Shown here: positions 39,131 through 46,822 of the stretch, one piece after another
How positions within the stretch are numbered: the stretch's first letter is position 1
Layout of the letters: the number at the start of each line of letters is the position of its first letter
Made by a program: the position numbers and the translations under genes
Origin: Methanoculleus chikugoensis
Lineage (GTDB): Archaea > Halobacteriota > Methanomicrobia > Methanomicrobiales > Methanoculleaceae
Direction: 5' to 3'
Length of the DNA stretch: 64,000 nucleotides
Assembly (NCBI RefSeq): GCF_019669965.1
Contig: NZ_AP019781.1
Span: forward strand, 1,675,092 to 1,739,091
The notes under the pieces: model-generated
The model's input: the letters and a program-made list of their open reading frames with translations, nothing else
Database searches by the model: none
What the model was told of the DNA's origin: nothing

Positions 39131-42100
39131 TTATGCTCTATGGTCAGGTCGTATGACAGGTCGCTCCCGGATCCGCTCCACCGCATTCTCGGCGGCTTTC
39201 CGGGCGTACCAGTCCTCGTCGTCGAAGATGCCTTCAAGGGGCGCAATCGCTCGTGCATCCCCGATCTCGGCGAGCACGTCCGCCGCACGTTTCCGGACAT
39301 CGCCGTCCGGGTCGCCGAGCGCGGATACGACCGGATCCACCGCCGGGGCCCCTATGGCGACGAGCGCCGCTGCGACCTCTCGCCGGACGCTGTAGTAGTC
39401 GTCGTGGAGGAGACTCATGAGCCCCGGAATCGCGCGCGGGTCGCCGATCTCGCCGAGAATCATCGCCGCCCGCCGCCGGATACTGTCGTCGTGGTCGCCG
39501 AGCACACGCACCAGCGGTTCGACCGCGGCCGCTCCCACCCGGGCGAGATCGCCCCATCGCTCCTTCGCGATCAGGTAGACGACCGTCTCCTCCCCCGTTG
39601 CAGGCGACCAGCCCAGGTGGTCGAGGGCGTCCGCGACCCCGGCACGGACACGGAAATGCTCGTCGGTGAGCGCACCGGGGAGCAGGCGTGCCGCGGGCTC
39701 GCCGATCAGCACAAGCGCCGCCACCGCACCCTTCCGGGCCGCCTCGTTTCCGTCCCTGAGAACCCGCAGGAGCGGCCTGACCGCCGGTTCGCTCATCACC
39801 CCGAGCGCACGCACCACGACGCGCCCCAGGCGGTGGTCGTCGTGCAGGAGCGCATCGATCAGCGGCTCGGTGGCCGCCGGGTTCCCGATCTTGCCGAGCG
39901 TCGCGGCCGCTCCCATCCGGATTGTCGGGGGGGCGGCGCGGAGAGCCCGGACCAGTGGTTCGACGGCCGGATCGCCGATGCCGACGAGCGCCCGCGCCGC
40001 ACCCAGGCGGATCTGCCAGTCGCGGTCCTGGAGAGCCTCGATGAGCGGAATGACCGCCGGTTCGCCGATCATCTTGAGTGCCTCGACCGCCTTTCTCTGC
40101 GTGCCATCCTGTTCGATGCGGAGCTCGTAGATCAGCCTCGCGACTGCGGGAGCCCCGATCAGCCCGAGCGCCCGCGCCGCACCCATCTGGATTGCGCTGT
40201 CCGGGTCGTTGAGCGTCCGGATCAGCGGTCCGACCGCACCGGGCCCGATCCCGGCGACGGAAGCCCACTGTTCCTTCGCGATCAGGTAGCTGACGGTCTC
40301 ACTCTCGGTCCGCGGTTCCCACCCGGCCCTGCCGAGAACCTCCGCCGCGCCCAGCCGCACCAGGTAGCGTTCATCGTTGAGCGTCTGCATAAGCAGATCG
40401 ACGACCAGGCTCCCGAGGCGGGTGAGGACGTCGATCGCCCCGAGCCTGACGGCATCGTCGGGGTGCCCCAGCGCCTCGACGAGCGGGGCCGCAACCGCTT
40501 CCCCAAGACCGGCGAGCAGATCTCCCGCCCGCTGCCGGATCAGGGCGTCGTCGTTCCCGAGCGCCTCGACCAGGAGATCGAAGGCTTCCTCCCCCATCGC
40601 CTCGAGGATCCCGGCGGCGGTCTGCCCAATCCCGGGATTTCCGAGAACCGGGACGAGCGCGCCGGCCGCAGAACCCCCGATCCGGACAAGCACTCCGGCG
40701 GCCGTCTTGCGGAGCCGGGTCTTCTCCAGGACCTGGATCAGCGGTTCCACCGCGGGTTCGCCGATCGCAACAAGCGTCTCTACCGCCGGATCGCGGAGCG
40801 CCTTCCTGCCGAGCAGGAGGATCAGGGAGGGAACCGCAGGGGCCCCGAGGCCGACCAGCGCCTCCATTGCTCCGGCCTGCACCGCCGGATCAAGGTCGCC
40901 GAGCCGCGGCACCAGGTGGTCGACGGCGGGAGCACCGATATCCACGATCTCCGGCCATCGCTGCAGCGCGATCAGGTAGACAATCTCCTCCGCCGTCCGC
41001 GCTTCGGGAGCCCACCCGAGCTGCTCAAGGACTCTTGCGGCTCCCATGCGGATCGACGAGTTTTCGCCGCCGAGTGCCCCGGCAAGCGGTTCGAGCGCCG
41101 GAGCGCCGATCCCGGTGAGCGCCGCCGCCGCCCCTGCCTGACCGTCGCTCTCCTCACCGAGGAGAGGGATGAGGGCGTCTACCGCAGGCGCACCGATCCC
41201 GATCAGGGCGTCGACGGCCTTCCGGTGAAGGCGGTCCTCACCGGTCCTGACGAGTTCGACGATGGCCGGAACCGCCTCCGGCGTCCCGAGTCGGCCCAGA
41301 ACCTCGACGGCACTCTCCCGGGCGCCCCCGACCCCACCTTCAAGCAGTTCGAGGACGGGCGCCACGGCCGGTTTCCCGATGGCAACAAGCGCATCCGCCG
41401 CCACCGGGGCGACGGCCTCGTCGGCGAGGGCATCCACGAGCGCCCCTACCGCCGCCGGATCGCCGATCTCGCCGAGCGTCGCTGCAGCCTCGCAGCGTAT
41501 GCGGGCGTCATCGCCGCTGAGCATCCGGATCAGCGGCTCAACGGCCGGCGAGCCCATCAGGGCGAGTTCCATCCACTCCTCCCGGGCAACCAGGTACCAG
41601 GCCCGTTCAGAGTCGCTCCAGGGCTCCCAGTTCATCCTGCCGAGAATTTTAGCGACCTGGGACCGGATACGGGACTTCCCGGACGTCAGCGACTGGATCA
41701 GGGCCGGTACCGCCGGCTCGCCGAGCGCACCGAGAACCTCCTGAAGCGTCTCCTGCGCCTCCCCGTCCGCGGAGTCCAGGGCGCGGATGCACGCCTCCGT
41801 TGCCGGTTCACCGATCTTCGCCAGAGCCGCCGCCGCCGTTCTGCGGAGGGAGGGGACGGAGAGCAGCCCGATGAGCGGCTCGACCGCAGGAGAACCGATC
41901 TCCGTGAGCGCCATGGCCGCCAGCGGGCGGATCTCATCGCCCGCCTCGTGCAGAAGTTCGACCAGAGGATCGACCGCGGCCGCGCCGATCTCCCCGAGAG
42001 TCCGGGCGGCGTTCCACCACACCCCCCTGTCGGGGGACTTCAGGATGCGGATGAGGGGATCGACCGCAGTTTCACCGTAATCCGCAACGTCGAGCCACGC

Positions 42101-43426
42101 TTCGTCGGCGACGAGGTAGCGTATCGCACCGGCGTCGTCGGAGGCTTTCCACCCGAGTTCCCGGAGGACGGAGGCCGCCGACCTTCGGATGCTCCGCTCA
42201 GGCGCACCGATGGCCTCGATGAGGAAGGGGATTACTTCGGCGCCGATCTCCCGGAGCGCGTAGCGGGCACCGAACTGCACCTCGCCGTCATCGCTGGCAA
42301 GCGCTGCGATGAGAGGCGGCACAGCGGGAGACCCGATGCGCACGAGCGTAGCTGCCGCCCCGATCTGCGCCGTAACGTCCCCGAGCGCAGCAATCAACGC
42401 AGAGATTGAGTCCTCGCCGATCAGAGCGAGGGCCTCGGCGACGCACCACCGCCGCCCGTCGTCCGCAAGGGCAAGGGCCCGAACCAGCGGTTCCACGGCG
42501 TCGGCTCCACGCTCTGCGATGGCACTGACGGCACGCCCGCGAACTCCGGCATCGTCACTCCCGAGATCGTCGATGAGCGACTCTATCGGGCGTTCATCGT
42601 CTCCCCCCGCAGCCTCACAGATGGGAGGGAGGGGGGAGGTCACGGCCGCCGGCTCTTCCTCTGAGAGATCGAGTTCGAGTTCGAGTTCGGCAAGCCCGGG
42701 AGAGGGGTCGACATCTCCGTCCTCGAACTCCAGCATCTGCATGAGTTCATCGGCGCTGAGGGAGTCGGGGTGCGGCGCAGGCTGGTCGTCCGGAACGCCG
42801 GGCATGCCGTCATCCAGGAGAGAAAAGTCCGGGAAGTCTTCTGCCGCAGAAGGCTCCGTAGGGGAGAGAGCATCGACTTCGTCCGGGGGGGCAAGACCCC
42901 CGGGGCCGTCCGCAGGAGGCGCCGCCGGGGAAGGAACGGTAACCGTTTTGTCCGGCGAGACGAGTTCGTCGAACCGCCGGAGAGCATCGGGGACGTTCTC
43001 AAGCCTCTCGAGGACGCTCGCCCTACCGTCGGCCGGAGCATGCCTGCGCGGGGGGGTCTCGACGGACAAACCGGCAACCGGGGGTTTGGGGGCGCCCTTA
43101 CTTTCGCTCTCTTCGGTATCCTTCTTTATCCAGTGCCTGATAAGCGAAGAGCCGTTCGGCCCGAAGAGCCCGGGCAGGCAAACGATGGGCAATACTGATT
43201 CAACCGCCGGCATACCCGGCACTCCCGCACCGGGCAGAAGAAGGAAAAGACATACGATCCCGAAGATCGCGCAGATCAGGGCACGGAACGCCGGAAAAGG
43301 TGCACGGTCGTCACCGGGCGCTCGCCCATCCGCGGATACCGGCAACACCATCACTATACCGCGGATTTCGGCTGCCGGATCGGTGGATTGGCTGTCCGGG
43401 AATGCTCGTCGGCCCTCGATGCACAT
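39131..43426 (-). CDS. giant HEAT/PBS-lyase repeat membrane protein
   Basis: Protein of about 1431 residues. A hydrophobic N-terminal segment (RALICAIFGIVCLFLLL and following) anchors it. A Pro/Glu/Asp-rich linker (about 90-270) leads to a long array of HEAT repeats of about 31 residues, often with AVEPLI and ALGEIG, filling the remaining 1150 residues. The array is organised in larger blocks, each opened by a GW-x-P ... YL(I/V)A-x-x-x-W element; five of these are visible. Such solenoids act as protein-binding scaffolds. The ATG at 43426 fits a TATA box at 43450-43457 (leaderless). Partners are unknown. Confidence 0.85.
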   Translation of the reverse strand: MCIEGRRAFPDSQSTDPAAEIRGIVMVLPVSADGRAPGDDRAPFPAFRALICAIFGIVCLFLLLPGAGVPGMPAVESVLPIVCLPGLFGPNGSSLIRHWIKKDTEESESKGAPKPPVAGLSVETPPRRHAPADGRASVLERLENVPDALRRFDELVSPDKTVTVPSPAAPPADGPGGLAPPDEVDALSPTEPSAAEDFPDFSLLDDGMPGVPDDQPAPHPDSLSADELMQMLEFEDGDVDPSPGLAELELELDLSEEEPAAVTSPLPPICEAAGGDDERPIESLIDDLGSDDAGVRGRAVSAIAERGADAVEPLVRALALADDGRRWCVAEALALIGEDSISALIAALGDVTAQIGAAATLVRIGSPAVPPLIAALASDDGEVQFGARYALREIGAEVIPFLIEAIGAPERSIRRSAASVLRELGWKASDDAGAIRYLVADEAWLDVADYGETAVDPLIRILKSPDRGVWWNAARTLGEIGAAAVDPLVELLHEAGDEIRPLAAMALTEIGSPAVEPLIGLLSVPSLRRTAAAALAKIGEPATEACIRALDSADGEAQETLQEVLGALGEPAVPALIQSLTSGKSRIRSQVAKILGRMNWEPWSDSERAWYLVAREEWMELALMGSPAVEPLIRMLSGDDARIRCEAAATLGEIGDPAAVGALVDALADEAVAPVAADALVAIGKPAVAPVLELLEGGVGGARESAVEVLGRLGTPEAVPAIVELVRTGEDRLHRKAVDALIGIGAPAVDALIPLLGEESDGQAGAAAALTGIGAPALEPLAGALGGENSSIRMGAARVLEQLGWAPEARTAEEIVYLIALQRWPEIVDIGAPAVDHLVPRLGDLDPAVQAGAMEALVGLGAPAVPSLILLLGRKALRDPAVETLVAIGEPAVEPLIQVLEKTRLRKTAAGVLVRIGGSAAGALVPVLGNPGIGQTAAGILEAMGEEAFDLLVEALGNDDALIRQRAGDLLAGLGEAVAAPLVEALGHPDDAVRLGAIDVLTRLGSLVVDLLMQTLNDERYLVRLGAAEVLGRAGWEPRTESETVSYLIAKEQWASVAGIGPGAVGPLIRTLNDPDSAIQMGAARALGLIGAPAVARLIYELRIEQDGTQRKAVEALKMIGEPAVIPLIEALQDRDWQIRLGAARALVGIGDPAVEPLVRALRAAPPTIRMGAAATLGKIGNPAATEPLIDALLHDDHRLGRVVVRALGVMSEPAVRPLLRVLRDGNEAARKGAVAALVLIGEPAARLLPGALTDEHFRVRAGVADALDHLGWSPATGEETVVYLIAKERWGDLARVGAAAVEPLVRVLGDHDDSIRRRAAMILGEIGDPRAIPGLMSLLHDDYYSVRREVAAALVAIGAPAVDPVVSALGDPDGDVRKRAADVLAEIGDARAIAPLEGIFDDEDWYARKAAENAVERIRERPVIRPDHRA

Positions 43427-43732
43427 AATGAAAACTCTACGTCTAAAAATTAAATATGTTTGTTTCTCTCGCCCGGGAAATAAAAAAATCATTATATATC
43501 ACCTGTTTCAGGAACGAATATTAGCTGCCCGGACCCCGGGGTCGCCGGGCAGCGTCTGCACCGGACTGATGAGGCGTATCAGGCGGCGGTCACAGGTACG
43601 GTGCCGCATGGAGCGTTGCAGCGACGTGACCGATCAACCGCTATTTGCGGCATGGGCAGGAAAATCCGGAGAACTACGGCCCTGCTGCCGAATTAACCCC
43701 ATCGGCACCTGAATCAATCCACCAACGGCCGA
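43427..43732. promoter_or_regulatory. promoter region of the HEAT-repeat gene
   Basis: On the minus strand, atatttaa at 43450-43457 is centred about 27 nt before the ATG at 43426, so transcription probably starts at that codon. A second TATA-like element (atatataat, near 43486-43494) lies further upstream. The remainder, 43500-43732, has no supported gene and separates the HEAT gene from the DUF6573/HTH gene on the same strand. Confidence 0.45.
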
Positions 43733-44344: not shown

Positions 44345-44631
44345 ATCTCTCCGGAATAATTCCGCGCTCTACTATACCACTATGGGGATATCGATCATAA
44401 AATATTTACCAAAAATTTCGCGGTATTTTCCGATTTATTCCACGTTAAAGGCTTATTTAGAAGGGGCCGCGAGTGAAATGCCCCCATGATCCGGCAAGAA
44501 CGGTCCTCCGACTCCAGGAAACGCGAATACAGAGCCAATAATGCAAAAATAATGAAGCAAAAGGTTCAGAATGGCTCCCATGAATCCCAATCCCGGGAGG
44601 GCTGCTCCGACAAAGCCTATATAGCATCAGG
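44345..44631. promoter_or_regulatory. divergent promoter region with TATA at 44618-44623
   Basis: An AT-rich gap between the DUF6573/HTH gene and the CARF-like operon. TATATA at 44618-44623 would place the plus-strand transcription start near 44646, just before the GTG at 44647. AT-rich sequence at 44380-44460 probably serves the minus-strand gene. No ORF is supported. Confidence 0.45.
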
Positions 44632-45159
44632 GTGAGTCTTGAGGCAGTGATTGTCCCCGTGACACCCGCTTCCGGCGACGCCTACATAGCACTTCTCGGC
44701 CGCTCAACATGGGCGCTCGTCAACGCTTATCACGCAGTCCTGCGTGAGAAGGGACTGCGCCCCGAACGGGTCATTATCGTCACCGAAGAACCCTACGCGC
44801 AGGAAGCATCGGTCGCGGCCGAAGCAATCGGAGTCGTTTCGGAGGGATACGGGTTCGCCCCCGCGATCGAAACGGAGATCCTGCCCGAAGCGGACTTCGT
44901 GAGGACCGGACAGACGATCAGGTCGCTTGCCGGTGATCTCATCGAGCAGGGACTTCACGTGGCGATTGACATCACCTCCGGCAGGAAAGTCACGGTCGCC
45001 GGGGCGCTCATTGCGGTCTCGGTCGCGGGACTCGATATCCGGCACATCTATTATCTTGCCATGAAGAACACCGACGACGTTGCAAAGCCCTACATGATGA
45101 TTCCGCACCAGATCCAGCAGATCCGGGATATCATGGAGGACGCGGGGGCGAGAGGATGA
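44632..45159 (+). CDS. standalone CARF-like Rossmann-fold protein
   Basis: Protein of about 175 residues. The first strand (VIVPVTPASG) and GRSTWALVNAYHAVLREKG-x-RPERVIIVTEE follow the CARF pattern, and AIDITSGRK at 111-119 with AGALIAVSVAG matches the CARF (D/N)-x-TGG-(T/R)-K ligand-binding loop. In CRISPR type III systems such domains bind or cleave cyclic oligoadenylates; single-domain examples include Crn1 ring nucleases of similar size. No CRISPR genes are present here. GTG at 44632 is the longest start; the TATA box favours GTG at 44647. The stop overlaps the PIN gene (ATGA). Confidence 0.65.
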   Translation: MSLEAVIVPVTPASGDAYIALLGRSTWALVNAYHAVLREKGLRPERVIIVTEEPYAQEASVAAEAIGVVSEGYGFAPAIETEILPEADFVRTGQTIRSLAGDLIEQGLHVAIDITSGRKVTVAGALIAVSVAGLDIRHIYYLAMKNTDDVAKPYMMIPHQIQQIRDIMEDAGARG

Positions 45160-46163
45160 ACGATGCGATCGTCAGGGAGGACGAACTGCAGGTTCTCATC
45201 AACAGCCTCGATGAGATCCGCATCAGGTACCCCCTCTACGAGGGCGATATCCTGGTCGCACGCCCCGAAGGTACCGGGTTTTCGCTCGAACTGCCCGCGC
45301 CCCGCGAGACCTTCCAGGACTGGGTCGCCGAATACGAGCCGGTCTCCGCGGAACTTCCTTCCTACGCCGATCTCCAGGAATGCATGTTTGCAAGCGGGGT
45401 CGCCCGCTACGTGAACCATGCCGCCTTTGAATCGATGCTCGCATCGTATGGGCAGCTCAAGAAGGCCGTCTTCTTCGGCCTGGATACGAACCTCTTCTAC
45501 CACGGGTTTGCATCGAACAATCCCCGGATCGAGCACGCTTCATACCTGATCGTCGATACCGTCCGGGACGAGATCGCGTATGCCATCAACCGCAAGTACC
45601 CGGCAAAGACGATCGGGGAGATGACGGCACTGGCGCCCGACTGCCGGGAATACATTGTGGAACTCGAGAACAAGCGGACGAAGCGGTCACGCAAAGCGGC
45701 GTATCTCGCGCTGAAGGAGTACCGCACCATCCGTGACCGGGCGACGAAGATTGCAGCCCCGGGCCCGCATACGCACCTCTCCGAGGAGAACGATTATAAC
45801 ATCGTCCGGGCGCTCCGGAAGTTCGAAGAAGAGCGGTACGCCCTCCCGGTTCTCCTGACCGCCGACATCTACATGGCCGATCTCTGCATGGCCGAGGGGC
45901 TCGAGTACTTCTACTTCGACCGCCCATATAGGTTGGAGACAACAGCCTGCACGGCGCCGGCGTTCCGGCGACTGCTCTTCAACCTTGCCGCCGTCTTCGG
46001 ATTCGTGGATTGCAACGGCACCACGATCTTCGGGGAGTACGGCGGAAAGGGCAACGACCTTGACGAGCTCAAAGTCCGTTTCCGGGACGACGAGGCGTAC
46101 CGTGCATTCACGAGGGAACTCAAGATATGCAGGCACCTTACGGCACTCGGCATACCGCGGTAG
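45156..46163 (+). CDS. PIN-domain nuclease coupled to CARF-like protein
   Basis: Protein of 335 residues. A PIN fold lies in the centre: D110 in FFGLDTNLFYHGF, E139 in DTVRDEIAYAI, D213 in EENDYNIVRAL and D237 in VLLTADIYMADLCMAEG, the four acidic positions that bind metal in PIN ribonucleases. An approximately 100-residue N-terminal domain (ending SYGQLKKAVF) and a C-terminal region (about 255-335) are not recognised and may bind substrate or the partner. It starts inside the CARF-like stop, so both are made together. It probably cleaves RNA; target unknown. Confidence 0.7.
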   Translation: MNDAIVREDELQVLINSLDEIRIRYPLYEGDILVARPEGTGFSLELPAPRETFQDWVAEYEPVSAELPSYADLQECMFASGVARYVNHAAFESMLASYGQLKKAVFFGLDTNLFYHGFASNNPRIEHASYLIVDTVRDEIAYAINRKYPAKTIGEMTALAPDCREYIVELENKRTKRSRKAAYLALKEYRTIRDRATKIAAPGPHTHLSEENDYNIVRALRKFEEERYALPVLLTADIYMADLCMAEGLEYFYFDRPYRLETTACTAPAFRRLLFNLAAVFGFVDCNGTTIFGEYGGKGNDLDELKVRFRDDEAYRAFTRELKICRHLTALGIPR

Positions 46164-46822
46164 AGGCGGTCCTCTGCGACATGGATAACACCCTCTTTGA
46201 CCTTATCGGAGCGAAGCGGGAGGCATGCCGGTGCGTGGTCGACTACCTCGGAACCGGCGACCCTGAATCGCTCTTTTCACAGTTTCTCCGGGGAATTCAC
46301 GGGTTCGAGGACCACGAGAACATACGCGATTATCTCGAAAGTCTCGGGGTGTACGAGGAGCGGGCATTCGAGGTCTGCTGCCGCACCTACGAAGACGTGA
46401 AACTCAGCCTGGTCGAGGCGTACCCGGGTGTTGAGGAGACGCTCCGGTGCCTCCGGGACGCCGGGATCGCTCTCGCGGTCGTGACCGACGCGGAGTCGTC
46501 CCAGGCACACCGGCGGCTCGAAAAGACCGGGCTCATCGATTACTTCGAGACCGTGGTGACCCCGGAGGTCTCGGGCCGGCGGAAACCGGAGCCCGACTCA
46601 CTCGTCTACGCTCTCCGGCGGCTCGATGCGGCTCCGGCGCGGGCGATGATGGTGGGCGACAGTCTGGTCCGCGACATCGCTCCGGGGAGAGATCTCGGGA
46701 TGGTGACCGCGTTCGCCGCCTACGGCGACTGGCGCGACGGCAGCGTGGCGGAGATAACGGCCGATATCGTTCTCGCAGAGTTCGGCGAACTCACCGACCA
46801 CCTGGGCATTACGGGCCGATAG
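46127..46822 (+). CDS. HAD-superfamily hydrolase, third gene of the CARF/PIN operon
   Basis: Protein of 231 residues with all HAD motifs: D18-x-D20 in AVLCDMDNTLFD, the T of VVTDAES, the lysine in SGRRKPEPD, and MVGDSLVRDI. The cap is helical (C1 type), as in phosphoglycolate phosphatase and 5'-nucleotidase-like enzymes. No start codon lies between the PIN stop and motif I, so the ATG at 46127 overlaps the PIN gene by 37 nt. The overlap suggests a shared transcript. It could dephosphorylate a nucleotide or a cleaved RNA product. Confidence 0.85.
   Translation: MQAPYGTRHTAVEAVLCDMDNTLFDLIGAKREACRCVVDYLGTGDPESLFSQFLRGIHGFEDHENIRDYLESLGVYEERAFEVCCRTYEDVKLSLVEAYPGVEETLRCLRDAGIALAVVTDAESSQAHRRLEKTGLIDYFETVVTPEVSGRRKPEPDSLVYALRRLDAAPARAMMVGDSLVRDIAPGRDLGMVTAFAAYGDWRDGSVAEITADIVLAEFGELTDHLGITGR

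Follow-up and report, generated by a model that had tools for sequence, protein, structure and literature searches.

The locus under study lies in a window of 64,000 nt (the whole stretch of DNA that was analysed) from the methanogen Methanoculleus chikugoensis, order Methanomicrobiales (assembly GCF_019669965.1, contig NZ_AP019781.1, positions 1,675,092-1,739,091). The host genome consists of one contig of 2.62 Mb and is 99.6% complete. All three open reading frames that a first-pass annotation of this DNA had proposed were found where it placed them, and they code for a CARF-domain protein, a PIN-domain protein and a HAD-superfamily phosphatase (Table 1). The ATGA overlap between genes 1 and 2 was likewise confirmed. 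The figure of 37 nt given for the junction of genes 2 and 3 also proved right, but it measures an overlap and not a gap between the two. The earlier proposal that the three genes form one unit is also supported.

A probable promoter was recognized as a TATA-box-like element immediately upstream of gene 1, with AAAGCCTATATAG or a near variant occupying the same position in nearly all Methanoculleus loci examined. Judged from the position of this element, transcription would begin near 44645. Many relatives within Methanoculleus also have stop codons in this frame ahead of GTG 44647 or 44659. For these two reasons GTG 44632 is probably not the start codon, and translation of CARF probably begins at GTG 44647 or GTG 44659, which would give a protein of about 166-170 residues; residue numbers below are counted from GTG 44632. 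A scan for bacterial promoters and terminators, a method ill-suited to archaea, gave no matches.

Table 1. Coordinates of genes, overlaps and sequence elements at the CARF-PIN-HAD locus, in window positions.
Feature	Position	Strand	Remarks
TATA-box-like element CCTATATAG, archaeal type, probable operon promoter	44616..44624	+	Seen in sequence; function predicted
Gene 1, CARF-domain protein (predicted sensor), CARF_m1 clade	44632..45159	+	175 aa counted from GTG 44632
CARF loop following strand 1, GRSTWAL, residues 23-29	44698..44718	+	Core-clade form GRSxWA
CARF signature loop DITSGRK, residues 113-119	44968..44988	+	G117 and K119 conserved
ATGA, CARF stop codon overlapping PIN start codon	45156..45159	+	Seen in sequence; -4 overlap recurs in most loci
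Gene 2, PIN-domain protein (predicted nuclease)	45156..46163	+	335 aa
PIN catalytic Asp110 (DTN)	45483..45485	+	Invariant in 58 homologues
PIN catalytic Glu139	45570..45572	+	Invariant in 58 homologues
PIN catalytic Asp213	45792..45794	+	Invariant in 58 homologues
PIN catalytic Asp237 (TAD)	45864..45866	+	Invariant in 58 homologues
PIN/HAD gene overlap, 37 nt	46127..46163	+	HAD ATG within PIN codons ATA-TGC
Gene 3, HAD-superfamily phosphatase, helical cap	46127..46822	+	231 aa

Gene 1, which had been described as CARF-like, is a true CARF protein of the CARF_m1 clade. It matched the PADLOC CARF_m1--CARF profile PDLC01971 with an E-value of 1.7e-62 over residues 16-171 of 175, and Pfam Csa3_N at 5e-4. 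An AlphaFold model built with 55 homologues (pLDDT 93.2) has the Rossmann-like fold of CARF domains, and its top Foldseek matches were all CARF proteins (Cam1, Csm6, SiRe_0806, Csa3, Can2 and Cad1). Since these top matches show CARF proteins only, matches of the CARF profile to TAL effectors in the PDB were discounted as artefacts arising from the composition of an alanine-rich helix. The conserved DxTxGxK loop is present as DITSGRK at the residues named in the first-pass annotation, and its G117 and K119 are conserved in every core-clade, CRISPR-linked and haloarchaeal sequence compared. The loop after strand 1 differs between groups: it reads GRSxWA in the core clade, where R24 is present in 96% of sequences and W27 in 98%, and GSSPFA in most CRISPR-linked relatives. 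This difference hints at a different ligand but is no proof of one.

The structural comparison also resolved the identity of gene 2. Plain scans against Pfam and NCBIfam gave no informative PIN match, the Pfam PIN_4 match in the sequence-only scan falling below the cut-off. The AlphaFold model (pLDDT 94.7) had as its top Foldseek matches the CARF-PIN protein SiRe_0806 (PDB 9jxx/9jxw), with an alignment of about 340 columns. Below these came helicases, which are unrelated, and further PIN domains. The PIN fold of gene 2 is supported by the matches to SiRe_0806, SMG6 and additional PIN structures. The likeness to SiRe_0806 is remote, because sequence identity is only 12-14%. The four catalytic acidic residues of a PIN nuclease were correctly placed by the first-pass annotation at D110, E139, D213 and D237, and they are invariant in 26 homologues at the level of the order as well as in the 58 compared across archaea. 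The PIN domain is flanked by an N-terminal domain (about residues 1-100) and a C-terminal extension (about 260-335).

The two proteins together correspond to a single known architecture. Gene 1 covers the first third of the fused PADLOC profile CARF_m1--CARF_PIN and gene 2 the remainder (3.7e-16), so the pair is, as read from sequence and models, a split form of a fused CARF-PIN effector. The existence of this natural fusion supports the partnership of the two proteins, which in Methanoculleus are encoded by two genes with a 4-nt overlap and not by a single polypeptide of the SiRe_0806 type. In one further locus (L172) the CARF and PIN segments are in the same frame and are parted by one stop codon only. 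As a separate observation, two Geoglobus/Archaeoglobus-type loci carry a small PIN gene inserted between the CARF and PIN genes, VapC-like and 139 aa long in L099, and similar but preceded by a small ORF in L191.

A small gene that lies upstream of a PIN gene, overlaps it by 4 nt and strictly co-occurs with it also recalls a toxin-antitoxin pair, in which CARF would mainly restrain a toxic PIN RNase as VapB does VapC. We consider this very improbable, because PIN is accompanied by a conserved CARF protein, predicted to bind a ligand, and not by a DNA-binding antitoxin, the PIN protein of 335 residues has extra domains and is nearer to CARF-PIN than to VapC, and the pair has a core-genome distribution. 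A VapBC-like module in the strict sense, with a small DNA-binding antitoxin and a PIN toxin of about 130 residues, was rejected on grounds of size, fold and partner.

The assignment of gene 3 as a HAD phosphatase was upheld by its match to Pfam HAD_2 (2.8e-26) and by the presence of the four motifs of HAD family I, whose residues D18, D20, T120, K153 and D178 are invariant in homologues. In 32 of 32 loci the HAD start lies exactly 37 nt within the PIN gene. The PIN codon that precedes TGC at this start has A as its third base in 30 of these loci and G in two, while the encoded residue varies (I, V, L or A); at such codons elsewhere in PIN, A occupies the third position in 9%. The 32 loci are related, so this codon bias is not a formal probability, although it extends over several genera. 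The HAD protein is probably coupled to PIN by translation and has as its probable substrate a phosphorylated product or ligand; that it consumes the signal or product, as had been proposed, is speculation. No HAD gene was found beside PIN in the Thermococcales, haloarchaeal and CRISPR-linked loci examined.

Analysis of 150 genomes of the order revealed CARF and PIN genes in the same 51, with the two adjacent in every intact case; the pairing is obligate. All 29 Methanoculleus genomes carry the pair, and whole sister families of the order within the same survey lack it. Outside the order the PIN gene was found in Archaeoglobales, Thermococcales, Methanosarcinaceae, Bathyarchaeia, Methanomethylicia and one Asgard genome. 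CARF lies upstream of PIN in every one of these loci whose contig extends far enough, the Bathyarchaeia contig beginning at PIN with the CARF position outside it. The operon is under purifying selection (dN/dS 0.10-0.31). Taken with the shared occurrence in 51 of 150 genomes and the HAD overlap in 32 of 32 loci, these values place the operon far beyond chance, and conservation and dN/dS also eliminated pseudogenes or chance ORFs as an explanation. The first-pass annotation had made its proposal depend on the triad being a conserved neighbourhood, and this holds for the adjacency of CARF and PIN and for the HAD overlap where it occurs but not for the presence of HAD in all lineages.

The Methanoculleus operon is neighboured by genes for a HEAT-repeat protein, a DUF6573-HTH protein and methanogenesis marker 8, with no recognised defence genes among them. 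In the window the HEAT-repeat ORF (1453 aa) occupies 39131-43492 and the gene with DUF6573 plus helix-turn-helix 43736-44344, both on the minus strand, and several Methanoculleus genomes have the same two genes next to the operon. Other copies of the pair have different neighbours. An RNase J-like beta-CASP/MBL enzyme is encoded in or near the operon at 15 distinct loci (including L049, L052, L053, L101, L102, L104, L127, L194 and L197), directly 5' in Methanoregulaceae-type loci and directly 3' in Methanolobus; a search of the host genome for this partner, run without a positive control, gave no match. In five Archaeoglobales-type loci (L196, L197, L190, L193 and L100) CARF-PIN(-HAD) is preceded by McrB-McrC genes, with overlapping genes in L196 and L197, an arrangement which suggests that they share a type IV restriction operon. 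Some copies of the pair lie next to SbcCD-like or AddAB-like genes, the AddAB-like nucleases being found at some haloarchaeal loci, and Methanofollis loci appear from their sequences to adjoin transporter-like genes and no defence genes.

These data bear on the main rival of a ligand-gated RNase, which is constitutive RNA processing. PIN would then be a constitutive endonuclease of housekeeping RNA processing or decay, and CARF would bind RNA ends or serve only as a scaffold, with no alarm involved. Defence genes are seldom found in every member of a genus, and a distribution of this kind also agrees with a part in housekeeping RNA metabolism; purifying selection, the linkage to the RNase J-like enzyme, the transporter-like neighbours in Methanofollis and the AddAB-like nucleases at some haloarchaeal loci are all compatible with such a role. 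Entire sister families of the order, however, do not have the pair, a sister clade resides in type III-D operons (below), Archaeoglobales copies lie downstream of McrBC, and the CARF loop is strictly conserved, as ligand sensing predicts. On balance we regard a housekeeping function as unlikely, although it deserves more weight than any of the other alternatives considered here.

CARF proteins are known chiefly as receptors for cyclic oligoadenylates (cOA) made by Cas10, and one possibility raised in the first-pass annotation was that the host has a type III CRISPR system at another locus, of which the operon is an unlinked ancillary effector. Such an effector would be activated by cyclic oligoadenylate. 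The lack of a CRISPR array that it reported for the 64-kb window was borne out, and neither Cas10 nor Cas1 was found there, genome-wide searches placing both host Cas1 genes outside the window. In the complete host genome a Cas10 search with PF22335 gave no match and one with TIGR02578 only a sub-threshold fragment (E 0.17), the positive control being detected in both cases. The host CRISPR-Cas locus (L207:3228-19001) has an array of more than 100 repeats and no known cOA synthase, and would be of type I-C as read from gene order alone. A solo cas1 gene was also observed apart from this locus (G000:C1:859676-860485; L208:9650-10582). Cas10 was found in two of the 29 Methanoculleus genomes, leaving 27 without it. 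The survey of homologue-bearing genomes for Cas10 that had been called for showed no association within the order (5 of 51 pair-holders versus 10 of 99 non-holders, Fisher P=1.0) or in a sample of the phylum (11 of 46 versus 58 of 347, P=0.22).

Linkage to type III systems is confined to a divergent sister clade of the pair. Members of this clade are found within type III-D operons at five loci (L170-L173 and L176), of which L170 was annotated directly and has the order cas6-cas10-csm3-csx10-...-csm3-CARF-PIN-Csx1-cas1; the others were assigned by similarity, L176 being incomplete with only CARF seen. Another copy of the pair lies near a different cas10 locus (L175). No type III cas genes were detected near core-clade copies. 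In a concatenated tree the CRISPR-linked and haloarchaeal sequences split together from the core clade with a support of 0.99, and no Cas10 was found in the sampled genomes of the haloarchaeal clade. The tree is midpoint-rooted and is compatible with either direction of recruitment.

The match of both CARF and PIN to the cA4-binding SiRe_0806 and the residence of the sister clade in type III-D operons are what would be expected of a type III effector. Against this stand the failure to find Cas10 in the complete host genome or in 27 of 29 genomes of the genus, the absence of a Cas10 association, the lack of detected type III cas genes near core-clade copies, and a core-clade CARF loop unlike the CRISPR-linked one. 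The role of type III effector of the host was accordingly rejected, Cas10 not having been found, and among all the readings considered we give this one the least credence. The other possibility raised in the first-pass annotation, a stand-alone module, is favoured: its independence of Cas10 agrees with the genome data, and the RNA cleavage, signal and defence role that it included are retained here as predictions.

We thus favour, with a probability of roughly 60%, a stand-alone, two-component effector of the Methanoculleus core genome in which CARF gates PIN in response to a ligand. The CARF protein would sense a nucleotide or an RNA-end signal, and the signal-bound form would allosterically gate the PIN nuclease encoded by the overlapping gene. 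PIN so gated would then cut RNA, perhaps in stress or defence, and HAD may remove a phosphate from the product or the ligand. It weighs against this reading that neither HAD nor the beta-CASP partner accompanies every copy of the pair. Since Cas10 was not found, the signal in the host would not be a type III cyclic oligoadenylate. By analogy, fragments of RNA that carry a cyclic phosphate at their ends are reasonable candidates. A precedent for a ligand other than cOA is RtcR, in which the CARF domain binds fragments of tRNA with a terminal 2',3'-cyclic phosphate (PMC7790460). A ligand of this type has also been put forward for the CARF proteins that are linked to CoCoNuTs, which are related to McrBC (PMC11090510). 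Another possible signal is the product of a so far unrecognised cyclic-nucleotide synthase. A search of the host for SMODS (CD-NTase-like) domains gave only a sub-threshold match, at G000:C1:425366-425614 (L213) in an open frame of 616 codons, and this weak match makes such a nucleotide cyclase in the host a possibility.

Extending the ligand-gated effector beyond the genus, we judge the chances to be even that these loci represent a CRISPR-independent CARF pathway of archaea, in which a non-Cas10 messenger or cyclic-phosphate RNA activates a split CARF/PIN RNase of the core genome, the type III-D copy being either recruited or ancestral. The CARF-nuclease pair occurs throughout a genus, is spread across archaea and is statistically unrelated to Cas10, which implies either a second archaeal alarm signal or a sensor of RNA damage. 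With a sister clade inside type III-D operons, the pair also allows a test of whether CRISPR recruited or released a signalling module, and a search for the ligand would have a clean background in strains of Methanoculleus or Thermococcus that lack Cas10.

The family of each part of the operon is already known, as are the CARF_m1 and CARF-PIN profiles. What appears to be new, an earlier description being possible, is a split, Cas10-independent CARF-PIN operon of the core genome with a coupled HAD; no Cas10-free core-genome operon of this kind was found described in the literature covered, which excluded Makarova et al. 2020 and the SiRe_0806 papers. Gene 1 is a member of the CARF_m1 clade by its profile match (1.7e-62), and gene 2 matches the PIN part of a fused member; the profile library records sequences only. 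The clade itself (PADLOC PDLC01971-PDLC01973) we take to be that of Makarova et al. 2020. RtcR is a CARF-AAA-HTH activator of RNA repair and differs in being a transcription activator and not the partner of a nuclease, and in its divergent CARF domain. The type III-D-linked pairs (CARF alone in L176) share the split two-gene layout and the catalytic residues of the Methanoculleus pair, but they lie in cas operons beside Csx1 and Cas1, have mostly GSSPF in place of GRSxW in the loop, and are without HAD. SiRe_0806 of Sulfolobus islandicus, solved with cA4 (PDB 9jxw, 9jxx), has the CARF and PIN folds in common with the Methanoculleus pair. It is a single fused chain from a different archaeal lineage, whereas the Methanoculleus proteins are encoded by two overlapping genes, have a HAD partner and occur in a host without detectable Cas10.
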